Part shown: piece by piece, positions 3,628-22,967 of the stretch
Layout of the letters: each line of letters starts with the position of its first letter
How positions within the stretch are numbered: position 1 is the stretch's first letter
NCBI GenBank assembly: GCA_018262475.1
Contig: JAGSYW010000003.1
Location: 1-42,003, forward strand
Direction: 5' to 3'
Length of the DNA stretch: 42,003 nucleotides
Origin: Burkholderiaceae bacterium
GTDB taxonomy: Bacteria; Pseudomonadota; Gammaproteobacteria; Burkholderiales; Burkholderiaceae_D
Notes under the pieces: model-generated
The model's input: the letters and a program-made list of their open reading frames with translations, nothing else
Database searches by the model: none
Told to the model about the DNA's origin: nothing
Position numbers and translations under genes: made by a program

Positions 3628-5376
3628 ATGGCGACAGCAGGCGAACAGGCAACCGCACCGGCTTTGATACCTGAGACAGAAACAGGTGGACAACAAACCG
3701 CAATACAGCGGTTTATTGCGTATGCCCGCTCCGAAGGGGTGCGCACCTATTTCCTGATTCTTGGCATCGCGGCAGTGATCGGCATCATGGCTGCCATCTG
3801 GCTGTGGAGCCAGAAAACGGAATACAAGGTGCTGTTTTCCAACTATTCCGACAAGGATGGCGGCGCAATCGTCACGGCCTTGCAGCAGATGAACGTGCCA
3901 TACAAGATTGCAGATACTGGCAATGCGATTCTGGTGCCGGATAAGCAGGTGCATGACGTGCGCCTGAGGCTGGCATCCCAGGGCTTGCCCAAAGGCGGCG
4001 GCATCGGCTTCGAATTGATGGAAAACCAGAAGCTGGGGATTTCCCAATTTCTGGAACAGGTAAATTTCCAGCGCGCGCTCGAAGGCGAGATGGCGCGCTC
4101 GATCCAATCCATCGGCGCCGTGCAGTCCGCGCGAGTCCATCTGGCGCTGCACAAGGCATCGGTTTTTGTGCGCGAACAGCAGAAACCGACCGCTTCGGTC
4201 ATGCTGAACCTGCATCCCGGCCGCTCGATCGACCAGAATCAGGTCAACGCGATTGTTCATCTGGTTGCCAGCAGCGTACCCAGCCTGGTGGCATCAAACG
4301 TGACAGTAGTCGATCAAAACGGCAACCTGCTCTCGGGCCCGGAAAAACCAAAGGACAACAAAACGCTTGATCCGTCGCAAATCCAGTATGTGCAGGAGTT
4401 GCAGCGCAACATTATCAAGCGGGTCGAATCCATCCTGACCCCTATCGTTGGTGAAAACAATGTGCGCGCGGAAGCAACCGCCGAAGTGGATTTCTCGACC
4501 AGCGAACAGGCCGCCGAAACTTACAAGCCGAACCAGCCGCCGAAAAACGATCCTGCCATCCGCAGCCAGCAAAGCTCGGAATCGCAAACCGTGGTCGGAA
4601 ATGCCGCCGCCGGTGTTCCTGGCGCGTTGACGAACCAGCCGCCGGCGCCAGCAACCGCGCCAATTACCCAGCAAGCAGCCAGAGGTGCGCCTGCAGCGAC
4701 TGCGCCCGGCGCACGGCCGGGCACTGCAACCACCCAGCAGATACCGATCAAGTCGCAAAAGGATGCCACCGTCAATTACGAAGTCGACAAGACCATCCGT
4801 TATACCCAGCAGCCAATGGGCGGGCTCAAGCGACTGACGGTGGCTGTGGTCGTCAATTACAAGAAACAGACCGACAGCGAAGGCAAAGTTGCTCTGGTGC
4901 CGTTGACCGATGCGGAAAAGGCGCAGGTAACCGACTTGGTCAAGGAAGCGATGGGCTTTAACAAGGAGCGCGGCGACTCGCTCAATGTGGTTAACAGCCC
5001 GTTTGCCGCCAAGGAGGCCGCGCCGCAACCGCCTTTGTGGAAGCGCCCGGAAATGCTGGCACTGGCACAGGAAGTCGGCAAATACATCCTGATCGGGGCA
5101 ATTTTGCTTTACCTCTTTTTCGCTTTCCTCAGGCCGATGCTGAGAAAATTGTTGCCGCAACCGCCCAAACCTGAGCCAACCTCTGCTGAAGGAGAAGAAG
5201 GAGAAGAAGGTGAAGAAGGCGAAGAAGGCGATGAAGATGCCATTGTCAGCCTGAGCGAAAAAGGCCAACGTCAAGGGCAACGCAGATATGAAGACAATCT
5301 CAGCGCTGCCAAGCAACTGGCCAAACAGGATCCGAAAGTCGTTGCCAATATTATCAAGAACTGGGTGGAAGAATGA
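3628..5376 (+). CDS. fliF: Flagellar MS-ring protein FliF
   Basis: FliF (582 aa) forms the MS ring in the inner membrane, on which the C ring and export gate assemble. Two membrane segments are visible, YFLILGIAAVIGIMAAIWLW (residues 41-60) and YILIGAILLYLFFAFL (near residue 490), enclosing the periplasmic ring-building domains. A disordered Pro/Ala/Gln-rich stretch lies in the middle. The C-terminal tail that binds FliG is preceded by an unusual run of Glu-Glu-Gly repeats (residues about 521-536). The stop overlaps the fliG start in an ATGA, so the two are coupled. fliF heads the long fliF-R run. Confidence 0.97.
   Translation: MATAGEQATAPALIPETETGGQQTAIQRFIAYARSEGVRTYFLILGIAAVIGIMAAIWLWSQKTEYKVLFSNYSDKDGGAIVTALQQMNVPYKIADTGNAILVPDKQVHDVRLRLASQGLPKGGGIGFELMENQKLGISQFLEQVNFQRALEGEMARSIQSIGAVQSARVHLALHKASVFVREQQKPTASVMLNLHPGRSIDQNQVNAIVHLVASSVPSLVASNVTVVDQNGNLLSGPEKPKDNKTLDPSQIQYVQELQRNIIKRVESILTPIVGENNVRAEATAEVDFSTSEQAAETYKPNQPPKNDPAIRSQQSSESQTVVGNAAAGVPGALTNQPPAPATAPITQQAARGAPAATAPGARPGTATTQQIPIKSQKDATVNYEVDKTIRYTQQPMGGLKRLTVAVVVNYKKQTDSEGKVALVPLTDAEKAQVTDLVKEAMGFNKERGDSLNVVNSPFAAKEAAPQPPLWKRPEMLALAQEVGKYILIGAILLYLFFAFLRPMLRKLLPQPPKPEPTSAEGEEGEEGEEGEEGDEDAIVSLSEKGQRQGQRRYEDNLSAAKQLAKQDPKVVANIIKNWVEE
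5188..5229 (+). repeat. 9-bp tandem repeat (GAAGAAGGN) coding for Glu-Glu-Gly in fliF
   Basis: Four consecutive GAAGAAGGN units occupy 5194-5229, preceded by a partial GAAGGA unit. They encode an acidic EGEEGEEGEEGEEG spacer between the second membrane segment and the FliG-binding tail. The repeat is in frame, so loss or gain of units would only change the spacer length. Confidence 0.9.
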
Positions 5377-8974: not shown

Positions 8975-10240
8975 ATGAATACGGCCACCATCAAGACCCC
9001 CATTGTTGCCATGACTGGCAATACAGCGAAATCTCCTGCTTCTGCGACTAACTCTGTTGCGCCCGATGAGTCGTTCAATCAGGTACTGTCAAAGGAAATG
9101 AGCGACCGCAGTTCGGCTGCCCGCTCCGGTAACGCTCAAGCGACGGAGAAATCTACGACATCGCGGCAACCTACAAAATCAGCCGAGAAAACTGCATCAA
9201 ATTCATCTGATGACTCTGATGAAGCAACACAAACTGATGCCAGCAACACGGATACAACTCATTTACTGGTGCTTGTTGCCGAATTAAGCGCTGTCGCAGA
9301 AAGCCCATCCCAACAAACCGCTTCTAGCACTGAATCATCTACAGAGGCCGCAGCTTTAATGTTATCGCAGAATACAGAGGCCGCAGCTTTAATGCTATCG
9401 CAGAATCCTGCATCACAAGCTGTTGCGCAAACCAGCCAACCGCTGGAAACCAAAACTGGCGAAATCGTAGCCGATGGTGTTATTCAAGCGCCAGACAATG
9501 CGTCCGATCGCGCAATCACATTCGATGCTCAAAGAACGGAACAAACTACTAATTTGGCTGCCACTATTAAGACAACCGATAACGCACAAGCCCTTAATCA
9601 GCCCGTGGGGGATTTTCATGAAACTATTTCATCTGCACTGACACAGACACAGACACAACCCGCGACAACCGAGCCTGTTGCTGCAGCAATCGAAAACAAC
9701 CTCTCAACCGTTAGCGGCGAATCGCACACGCCAAATGCAATAGCATTGGCTCCAATGCATCAGGTTTCTACAGCACTTGTGCAAACCGCAGCGAACATTA
9801 CCGAGAAATTAACGCCTCGCGTTGGCACTTCCGACTGGAACCAGGCGCTGGGCCAGAAAGTGGTCTGGATGGTCAACAGCGATGTGCAAAGCGCATCGAT
9901 GACATTGAACCCGCCTGATCTTGGTCCACTGCAAGTGGTGTTGAGCGTTTCGAATAATCAGGCCAGCGCCAATTTCGTTGCAGCCCAGCCGGAAGTTCGT
10001 CAGGCGCTGGAAGCCGCACTCCCGAGATTGCGCGAGATGCTGGGCGATGCGGGCATCCAGTTGGGCCATGCCAATGTGAGCGCAGGAACCCAGCAGCAGC
10101 AACACTCTAACCAAGGACAGCAGCAAATGCATGCAAGCTCGGCTCGAGGCAGCGGCAATGAGGGTATCTTTGTTTCGCAAACAGACAGCGTTGTCACACC
10201 CCGCTCAAGTCGCCAGGGAATGGTGGATACCTTTGCATGA
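8975..10240 (+). CDS. fliK: Flagellar hook-length control protein FliK
   Basis: FliK (421 aa) is the secreted molecular ruler that measures the hook and switches export specificity through FlhB. The N-terminal two thirds are low-complexity, rich in Thr, Ser, Ala and Gln, as usual for the ruler. The C-terminal domain carries the Flg_hook signature: WNQALGQKVVWMVNSDVQSASMTLNPPDLGPLQVVLSV, then RQALEAALPRLREMLGDAGIQLGHANV. The ruler region contains an exact-frame 33-bp tandem duplication (see the separate entry) and a short TQTQTQ run. A weak terminator-like hairpin follows the stop. Confidence 0.93.
   Translation: MNTATIKTPIVAMTGNTAKSPASATNSVAPDESFNQVLSKEMSDRSSAARSGNAQATEKSTTSRQPTKSAEKTASNSSDDSDEATQTDASNTDTTHLLVLVAELSAVAESPSQQTASSTESSTEAAALMLSQNTEAAALMLSQNPASQAVAQTSQPLETKTGEIVADGVIQAPDNASDRAITFDAQRTEQTTNLAATIKTTDNAQALNQPVGDFHETISSALTQTQTQPATTEPVAAAIENNLSTVSGESHTPNAIALAPMHQVSTALVQTAANITEKLTPRVGTSDWNQALGQKVVWMVNSDVQSASMTLNPPDLGPLQVVLSVSNNQASANFVAAQPEVRQALEAALPRLREMLGDAGIQLGHANVSAGTQQQQHSNQGQQQMHASSARGSGNEGIFVSQTDSVVTPRSSRQGMVDTFA
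9341..9406 (+). repeat. 33-bp tandem duplication in the fliK ruler region
   Basis: Two adjacent 33-bp units (9341-9373 and 9374-9406) differ at one base (GTTATC versus GCTATC). Each encodes TEAAALMLSQN. The single difference is synonymous (ATG TTA TCG versus ATG CTA TCG). This is a recent in-frame duplication that adds 11 residues to the ruler. Confidence 0.97.
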
Positions 10241-18851: not shown

Positions 18852-19238
18852 TTATTCCTCGCCTTGGCTTGCAGCCGAACGACGGCTTGGCAATTTTTCC
18901 TTGATGCGTGCAGACTTGCCAGAACGCTCGCGCAGGTAGTACAGCTTGGCGCGGCGTACATCGCCACGGCGCTTGACTTCGATCGAAGCGATCAGCGGCG
19001 AGTACAACTGAAACGTACGTTCCACGCCTTCGCCGGAAGAAATTTTGCGCACGATGAAGTTAGAGTTCAGGCCGCGATTGCGACGCGAAATCACCACACC
19101 TTCATACGCCTGTGCACGCTTGCGCGTACCTTCGACGACGTTAACGCTCACCACCACCGTATCGCCTGGAGCGAAATCGGGAATGTTCTTGCCCAAACGG
19201 GCGATTTCTTCTTGTTCGAGTTGCTGAATCAGATTCAT
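18852..19238 (-). CDS. rplS: 50S ribosomal protein L19
   Basis: L19 (128 aa) sits at the 30S-50S interface. The sequence [76 protein letters not shown] is a standard L19. The C-terminal tail ([17 protein letters not shown]) is slightly longer than in E. coli. It is the last gene of the operon, 157 bp after trmD, and is followed by a strong terminator. Confidence 0.98.
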
Positions 19239-19395: not shown

Positions 19396-20148
19396 TTACG
19401 TTTTCAGGCTAGCCAGGAACCGTTCGTCTGCCGTTGTCAGCAACCCAGCTTCTCTCGTCAGAGCAATCAAATCGGGGCGTTTGACCACGGTTGCGCGCAA
19501 CAACTGCTCGCGCCTCCATTTCTCGATTTCGGCATGATTCCCACCCAGCAGCACCGACGGCACAGATTCCCCTTGGTACTCTTCCGGCCGCGTATAGTGC
19601 GGACAGTCGAGCAAGCCATCTGCAAAGCTGTCGTTCTGCGCCGATTCCGCGTCGTTCAACACCCCCGGCAACATCCTGATGACCGCATCCATCAGCGCCA
19701 TTGCCGGTATTTCGCCACCCGAGAGCACGAAATCACCGATGCTAATTTCTTCATCCACGCAGCGGTCAAGCAAACGCTGATCGACCGCCTCGTAGCGGCC
19801 ACACAGCAATACCAAACCAGGATCAGCCGCAAGCCGGATGACGCGTTCGTGCGTCAGCGTCTTACCCTGGGGTGACAGGTAAATCACCCTCGGCACCGGC
19901 AAACCCAGTTCCGTTTGCCGCATTTTTGCCGCGACTATTGCATCCTCCAGCGGCTTGGCCATCATCACCATGCCCGGGCCACCGCCATAAGGCCGGTCAT
20001 CCACGGTACGATGCCTGTCTTGCGTGAAATCGCGCGGATTCCACAAGGACAAATGACTGCGATTCTGCTCGAAAGCGCGACGTGTGACTCCTGACTGGGT
20101 CAGCGCCGAAAACATTTCCGGAAACAGCGTGATTACATCGAATTGCAT
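19396..20148 (-). CDS. trmD: tRNA (guanine37-N1)-methyltransferase
   Basis: TrmD (250 aa) methylates G37 next to the anticodon with S-adenosylmethionine, preventing +1 frameshifts. The start [25 protein letters not shown] and the deep-trefoil-knot cofactor site ([51 protein letters not shown]) are diagnostic. It lies between rimM and rplS, the conserved order. Confidence 0.98.
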
Positions 20149-20186: not shown

Positions 20187-20741
20187 TCAGAAATCCCGCT
20201 GCCAGTCCACCTGAATGACCTTGCCGGCCTGATCGACCTTTTTGATGAATTGATCCACGAATGGGATCAACATCTCTCGCTGCCGTTTTTCAACGCCAGA
20301 CACATCGGACAGATCAACCCGCAATATCGGATGAGCACCACTTTCAATCAAACCGCTGACGGTACCGAGCGACTCACCCTGCAAGTTGACAACAGCTAGG
20401 CCAATCAGATCGACCCAGTAAAATTCGTTGTCATCCGTCGCAGGGAAATGGCGGCGTGAAATCTGCACCACAGCGCCCTTGAGCGTCTCGGCCAGATCAC
20501 GACCGGCAATCCCGACCAGTTGCGCAACAACCTCCTCGCCATGCCTTCTGGCTTGAAGGACATCGACATCACGCAACTCCGGCTTATCCAACCACCACCG
20601 CCTGGCATGCAGCAGAGCCCCCGCATCCGCCGAATACGGCTTGATGCGCACCCATCCCTGAACGCCAAAAGCACCGGTAACATGCCCCACCGGCACCAGA
20701 TCATCCGGGATCTTGACCCCGTATGCGCCTGACTGCAGCAA
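20187..20741 (-). CDS. rimM: Ribosome maturation factor RimM
   Basis: RimM (184 aa) binds S19 in the 30S head during maturation. The N-domain signature [22 protein letters not shown] and the C-terminal PRC-barrel segment [39 protein letters not shown] are clear. The track start at 20741 is a TTG codon close behind rpsP. No upstream ATG is available, and a GTG 19 codons further in would cut into the conserved N-terminus, so TTG is the best choice. Spacing to rpsP is 11 bp. Confidence 0.94.
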
Positions 20742-20752
20742 ATCCGGCCGAA

Positions 20753-20995
20753 TTACTTGCCTGCGGGGCTGACCAGACGCGCAACTGCCGGCGACAGCTG
20801 TGCACCGACGCCTTGCCAGTACGTCAGACGATCCTGAGCAATGCGAACCGGCTCTTCTGCACCAGCTGCGATCGGGTTGTAGAAACCGATGCGCTCGATG
20901 AATCGGCCATCGCGACGGCTACGGGAATCTGCTGCAACGATGCTGTAAAACGGGCGCTTCTTGGAGCCACCACGAGATAAACGAATAACGACCAT
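20753..20995 (-). CDS. rpsP: 30S ribosomal protein S16
   Basis: S16 (80 aa) is a primary-binding 30S protein. [41 protein letters not shown] is unmistakable. It is the first gene of the rpsP-rimM-trmD-rplS operon. Directly upstream are two tandem TATAAT boxes in a duplicated 22-bp unit (separate entry), the probable promoter region of the operon. Confidence 0.98.
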
Positions 20996-21022
20996 ATTAT
21001 TTCCAAAAAAAGTCGGACAAGA

Positions 21023-21066
21023 AAAAAGTCCGGGATTATAGCGTGAAAAGTCCGCGATTATAGCGT
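21023..21066 (-). promoter_or_regulatory. Tandem-duplicated -10 region upstream of rpsP
   Basis: On the minus strand two adjacent 22-bp units each contain GCTATAAT followed by a CGGACTTTT sequence; they differ at two positions. Each has a perfect TATAAT, 22 bp apart, in the 97-bp gap between ilvD's end and rpsP. Matches to a -35 box are poor. The duplication may give two start sites for the ribosomal operon. Confidence 0.7.
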
Positions 21067-21092
21067 GTTTTACCGGGAAACGGAACCTTCTG

Positions 21093-22967
21093 TTATTTTT
21101 TCAGTTGTCCCAGATCACGTACGGCACCGCGGTCGGCAGACGCTGCCAGCAATCCGTATGCCTGCAATGCCTGCGACACGACGCGCTGACGGCTCACAGG
21201 CTTCCATGCTGCATCCCCCTTGGCTTCCATCACCTTGCGCCGGTTTGCCAGTTCGACATCGCCAACCCGCAAATTGATGGTACGACCAGGAATATCGATG
21301 TCAATCATGTCGCCCTCTTCGACCAAGCCGATCGCACCACCCGAAGCCGCTTCCGGCGACGCATGGCCGATAACCAGGCCCGACGAACCACCTGAAAAAC
21401 GCCCGTCGGTAAACAAAGCACAAGTCTTGCCCAGTCCTTTGGACTTCAGGTATGAAGTCGGATACAGCATCTCCTGCATGCCAGGCCCGCCTTTTGGCCC
21501 TTCGTAGCGGATGATGACGACGTCGCCATCAACAATCTTGTCACCCAAAATCGCATCAACCGCATCTTCCTGGCTCTCGAATACGCGCGCGCGGCCACTG
21601 AATTTCAGGATGCTTTCGTCAACACCAGCCGTTTTCACGATACAGCCGTTTTGCGCAATGTTGCCATAAAGCACCGCCAGCCCGCCGTCCTGTGAAAACG
21701 CATGCGCCTTGTCGCGAATGCAACCCGCCACGCGATCGGTATCGAGTTGCTCATAGCGCCTGTTCTGCGAAAACGCGACCATGCTTGGCACACCACCAGG
21801 CGCAGCCTTGTAGAACTGCTGCACAGCCGGATCCTGCGCGGTAATAATGTCGTTGGCGGCAATCGCTTCGCCCAGCGTTTTGCTGTGTACGGTCGGAACG
21901 CTGGTATCGAGCAGACCCGCACGCACCAGTTCGCCCAGAATTGCATAAATGCCACCTGCACGATGAACGTCTTCGATATGGTAATCCTGCGTCATCGGCG
22001 CAACCTTGCACAGACACGGCACCTTGCGCGAAATACGGTCGATGTCAGCCATGGTGAAATCCACCCCTGCTTCCTGCGCAATCGCCAGCAGGTGCAGCAC
22101 GGTATTGGTCGAACCGCCCATCGATACATCGAGCGCCATCGCGTTTTGAAATACAGCCTTGGTCACGACGCTGCGCGGCAGCACTGAAGCATCATCATTT
22201 TCATAATAGCGCTTGGCCATTTCGACAATCATGCGACCAGCCCGCAGGAACAGTTCCTTGCGATCGGCATGCGTTGCCAGCAGCGTGCCGTTGCCCGGCA
22301 AGCCCAAGCCAAGCGCTTCCGTCAGGCAGTTCATCGAGTTCGCGGTAAACATGCCTGCGCACGAACCGCAGGTTGGGCAGGCAGAGCGCTCGAACGACAT
22401 CACCTCGTCATCTGTCACACCAGGATCGCCTGCCTGAATCATCGCATCGATCAGGTCAATTTTGATGACCTTCTGCGAACCTTGCTCGCGACCACGCAGC
22501 GCTTCTTTCGTTTTGCCCGCTTCCATTGGGCCGCCTGAAACAAAAATCGTGGGGATATTCAGGCGCATTGACGCCATCATCATGCCCGGGGTGATCTTGT
22601 CGCAGTTGGTGATACAAATTATTGCATCCGCGCAATGCGCGTTGACCATGTATTCGACCGAATCTGCAATCAGCTCGCGCGACGGCAGCGAATACAACAT
22701 GCCCCCGTGCCCCATAGCGATACCATCGCAGATCGCGATGGTGTTGAATTCCCTCGCCACGCCGCCGGCCGCCTCGATTTCGCGCGCAACCATTTGCCCC
22801 AGATCCTTCAGGTGAACATGCCCTGGAACAAATTGCGTGAACGAGTTGACCACGGCGATGATCGGCTTATTGAAATCGCCATCCTTCGAACCGCAAGCGC
22901 GCCACAGTGAGCGCGCGCCGGCCATGTTGCGGCCGTGGGTCGAAGTATGTGAACGGTATTGCGGCAT
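21093..22967 (-). CDS. ilvD: Dihydroxy-acid dehydratase
   Basis: IlvD (624 aa) dehydrates 2,3-dihydroxy-3-methylvalerate/isovalerate in branched-chain amino acid synthesis, using an Fe-S cluster. Signature segments are visible: [25 protein letters not shown], the cluster-region cysteines in [30 protein letters not shown] and [20 protein letters not shown], and C-terminal [27 protein letters not shown]. Length is in the long bacterial class, typical of the [4Fe-4S] E. coli type. A GGAGAACTAAAC-type ribosome-binding site precedes the ATG. It is not in an operon with other ilv genes here. Confidence 0.98.

Follow-up and report, generated by a model that had tools for sequence, protein, structure and literature searches.

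In Escherichia coli, the promoters P1 and P2 of the rrn operons are about 120 bp apart, act independently of each other and are anciently conserved. The lac promoters P1 and P2 overlap, being separated by some 22 bp; they are governed by CRP and are not duplicates of each other. The locus considered here is a 22-bp direct repeat on the minus strand (21067-21024), located between ilvD and the rpsP-rimM-trmD-rplS operon in a DNA stretch of 42,003 nucleotides (the window). As in rrn, two (putative) promoters with GC-rich discriminators precede an operon of the translation machinery, but the rpsP pair is spaced by 22 bp and is private to one species. As in lac, the spacing is short and mutual exclusion is to be expected, but the rpsP copies are duplicates. 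A more general precedent is provided by the native tandem promoters of E. coli, which occlude each other when their starts are no more than 35 bp apart, and whose output can fall even below that of a single promoter; the open complex covers about 35 bp (PMC8830795). The two -10 boxes at rpsP point in the same direction and their predicted starts are 22 bp apart, that is, within one polymerase footprint. Unlike the E. coli pairs (PMC8830795), the second -10 box is an exact duplication and lacks a -35 element, and the starts are predicted ones. Another close counterpart is the single-copy rpsP promoter of Oxalobacteraceae relatives, which occupies the same place and shows the same GC-TATAAT, CGG discriminator and CTTTT start tract; in the window, there are two tandem cores instead of one, the -35 element is weakened to TTCCGT, and the spacer is 17 rather than 18 bp long.

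Judging from sequence comparison, the repeat is quite likely to represent a lineage-private tandem duplication of the housekeeping, sigma70-type core promoter of rpsP (the -10 box, the discriminator and the first transcribed bases), with the upstream start mainly used. It adds one more case to the closely spaced tandem promoters without introducing a novel type of control system, and the existing knowledge of ribosomal operon control is unchanged by it. The case is useful because it shows cleanly, in nature, how overlapping promoters can arise by tandem duplication: two sister species reveal the ancestral state with one unit, and the -35 element and the leader have been divided between the copies. 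This permits a straightforward test of occlusion and of the choice between start sites. A literature search yielded no report of a duplicated -10 box at rpsP and no start-site map for the Oxalobacteraceae-type family.

Table 1. Features of the rpsP promoter region and of the adjacent genes, in window coordinates
Feature	Position	Strand	Basis
Upstream (gene-distal) copy of the 22-bp unit, CACGCTATAATCGCGGACTTTT	21046..21067	minus	sequence
Downstream (gene-proximal) copy of the 22-bp unit, CACGCTATAATCCCGGACTTTT	21024..21045	minus	sequence
-10 box TATAAT, upstream copy; 61 nt between box and rpsP ATG	21057..21062	minus	
-10 box TATAAT, downstream copy; 39 nt between box and rpsP ATG	21035..21040	minus	
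Degenerate -35 element TTCCGT, 17-bp spacer, serving the upstream copy	21080..21085	minus	family profile
Predicted start site, upstream copy (A, 6th base after TATAAT)	21051	minus	inferred from -10 position
Predicted start site, downstream copy	21029	minus	inferred from -10 position
rpsP (30S ribosomal protein S16), first gene of rpsP-rimM-trmD-rplS	20753..20995	minus	
rimM	20187..20741	minus	
trmD	19396..20148	minus	
rplS (50S ribosomal protein L19)	18852..19238	minus	
ilvD (dihydroxy-acid dehydratase), same strand as rpsP, ends 97 bp before rpsP	21093..22967	minus	

All four genes of the operon score above the curated NCBIfam cut-offs. The nearest named matches of rpsP belong to Oxalobacteraceae (Collimonas, Oxalicibacterium, Undibacterium, Herbaspirillum), and the host is therefore taken to be within or close to this family. 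Both units are contained in the 97-bp intergenic stretch between the ilvD stop at 21093 and the rpsP start at 20995. No terminator-like hairpin was found between the two genes (20996-21092), so that transcription of ilvD may continue into the ribosomal operon.

In the best register, the two units are identical at 21 of 22 positions, and a perfect GC-TATAAT followed by a CGG discriminator is present in each. The original prediction had described duplicated TATAAT units with two differences; the repeat itself is borne out, and in the register used there, which is shifted by one base (21066-21023), the identity is indeed 20/22. The tandem-repeat score of 18 was reached in none of 200 first-order Markov surrogates of 42 kb, the best of which scored 14, nor in any of 20,000 first-order Markov surrogates of intergenic composition. 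The repeat upstream of rpsP is not a product of chance. In the whole 2.18-Mb assembly, this is the only pair of TATAAT boxes with 8-30 bp between them. It had also been claimed that a unit of two helical turns places both boxes on the same side of the DNA. The geometry is nearly so, since 22 bp from the start of one box to the start of the other correspond to 2.1 turns at 10.5 bp per turn and leave the boxes some 34 degrees off the same face, but a functional meaning of this phasing is unsupported: the boxes are as far apart as the duplicated piece is long, and the phasing needs no separate explanation.

The assignment of the units to the core promoter of the rpsP operon, as originally proposed, is well supported by the relatives, where GC-TATAAT, CGG and CTTTTT are found once at this place family-wide. 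Specifically, a profile built from 41 unique rpsP upstream sequences aligned on TATAAT consists of TTGCnG, an 18-bp spacer, GC-TATAAT, nnnCGG and the start tract CTTTTT (TTGCnG-18-GC-TATAAT-nnnCGGCTTTTT), with the -10 box and the discriminator among its most conserved parts. A TATAAT box is present 28-58 nt before the rpsP start in 75 genomes out of a family sample of 89; in the family promoter, the box is usually 37-51 nt ahead of the ATG. The downstream spacer CGGACTTTT, which had been singled out as conserved, is conserved indeed, but it is no new feature, being the family discriminator plus start tract. Strongly conserved across the family are the discriminator and start tract, CGGCTTTTTCCG, as well as the TTTTTGGAAATATT that precedes the rpsP ATG, as can be seen in the last 40 nt before rpsP, for example, in L008, L010, L018 and L034. 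No covariation was found in the family rpsP leader, and its conservation is, therefore, apparently at the level of sequence.

The expectation that such a duplication is unusual has held up: among 394 family genomes, two TATAAT boxes at rpsP are present in one only, that of the window itself. The predicted one-unit state is that of the two sister species: G002 and G001 each have a single unit, TATAATCGCGGACTTTT, identical to the upstream copy. When either 22-bp copy is removed from the window, the remainder aligns with G002 without gaps, with 68 or 69 matches over 75 positions. Thus, the copies are adjacent in one lineage, single in its relatives, and collinear with them after one deletion, the pattern of a tandem duplication. 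Because the unit is single in both sisters, the flanks are collinear after the deletion, and the double box occurs once in 394 genomes, the duplication is almost certainly derived and private to the lineage of the window, the species being represented by one genome. The single derived substitution, which turned G into C within the discriminator, must have followed the duplication and belongs to the downstream copy, since the unit of the sisters matches the upstream one. As a change of sequence, the duplication is small and probably recent. Microhomology is absent from the junction (AAAA before the unit, CTTTT at the unit end, TT after it); replication slippage or another short-range duplication could have produced the repeat.

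As regards the individual promoter elements, both copies have the -10 region of a sigma70-type promoter, with TATAAT, the conserved GC before it, and the family position. The discriminators that follow, CGCGGA and CCCGGA, are GC-rich, which by this sequence trait makes them candidates for stringent control by ppGpp/DksA. A scan with the sigma70 consensus listed neither copy, since both lack a -35 element of consensus sequence, and the family-built profile was needed. With this profile, the upstream region scores 16.3 for the upstream copy as compared to -12.6 for the downstream one, and the -35 block alone scores 2.2 and -13.8, respectively (95th percentile of random sequence, 0.4). At a spacing of 16-18 bp, the upstream copy is preceded by the degenerate TTCCGT and the downstream copy by no -35 element. 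Hence, the original statement that neither copy has a clear -35 is correct for the downstream copy, but the upstream copy keeps a weakened ancestral one: the hexamer is TTCCGT also in G002, TTGGAA in G001, and TTGCnG in the family.

Through the duplication, the context of the ancestral promoter has been divided between the two copies, such that the upstream one retains the former -35 element and the upstream DNA, and the downstream one retains the former leader and the distance to rpsP, having lost the -35. The RNA polymerase would then start mainly at the upstream copy (near 21051), extending the leader by about 22 nt relative to the sisters, and the downstream copy (near 21029) would be used at a lower rate. 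Dominance of the upstream copy is expected because of its -35 element, and from the distribution of the promoter parts we lean towards this copy as the one used; still, as its -35 is weak (TTCCGT), the downstream copy, driven by its -10 box, could be used just as much or even more. The two starts lie within the span of one open complex and would be mutually exclusive, so that the output of the operon would not be doubled and the net effect may be small.

Among the alternatives, it could be suggested that both promoters are functional and selected, and that the duplication has raised or retuned the output of the rpsP operon, for instance, as a ppGpp-sensitive pair with the discriminators CGCGGA and CCCGGA. 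Both -10 boxes are still perfect, one substitution falls in a discriminator, and the -10 and discriminator are among the best-conserved parts of the family promoter, all of which would be in line with selection. We nevertheless consider this unlikely: the two boxes occur in one species only, one substitution does not suffice to separate selection from recency, the downstream copy has no -35 element, and two starts at a distance of 22 bp should occlude each other rather than add up (PMC8830795). A fully adaptive version, with competing starts, different discriminators, two leaders, of which the longer one would carry a CGGAC/GUCCG hairpin ahead of a U-run, and a growth-state response of rpsP output unlike that of the sisters, appears quite improbable.

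Alternatively, the downstream copy alone could be the working promoter, at the ancestral distance to rpsP, with the upstream copy as a bystander. Its box is separated from the ATG by the same 39 nt as the single box of G002, near the 37-51 nt typical of the relatives. This distance, however, follows automatically from the tandem duplication, initiation is not set by the distance to the ATG, and the -35 context went with the upstream copy, so that we regard exclusive use of the downstream copy as distinctly unlikely.

The genome is of metagenomic origin and its assembly is fragmented (160 contigs, 91% completeness), which brings up the question of an assembly or strain-mixture artefact. Such an origin is very improbable, inasmuch as the two copies differ by one base, the flanking DNA aligns collinearly with that of the sister, and assembly errors in short repeats usually collapse tandem copies instead of creating unequal ones.

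It is extremely improbable that the units, instead of being promoter parts, act as a pair of operators or as a leader element at the RNA level, or belong to a dispersed repeat: the longer transcript could fold the CGGAC/GUCCG hairpin, but a single promoter at the same position throughout the family largely refutes this reading, to which the RNA and repeat searches are also unfavorable. In particular, a search of Rfam gave no match, and the leaders from either start folded no better than shuffled sequences (z-scores of -0.1 and -1.0); with such folding, and with no covariation in the family, an RNA regulator in the rpsP leader was rejected. Similarly, a dispersed repeat was rejected, as the 22-bp unit did not recur anywhere else in the 2.18-Mb assembly when up to 3 mismatches were allowed.

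Two other repeats of the window are located within coding sequences. The top-scoring tandem repeat of the window is an in-frame duplication of 33 bp at 9340-9406, which encodes 11 amino acids (TEAAALMLSQN) twice in a 421-aa open reading frame (8975-10240), presumably a candidate flagellar hook-length control protein, FliK-like. At 5188-5236, a run of GAAGGAGAA repeats encodes an acidic EGEEGEEGEEGEEG stretch in a 582-aa open reading frame that we take to be a candidate FliF.
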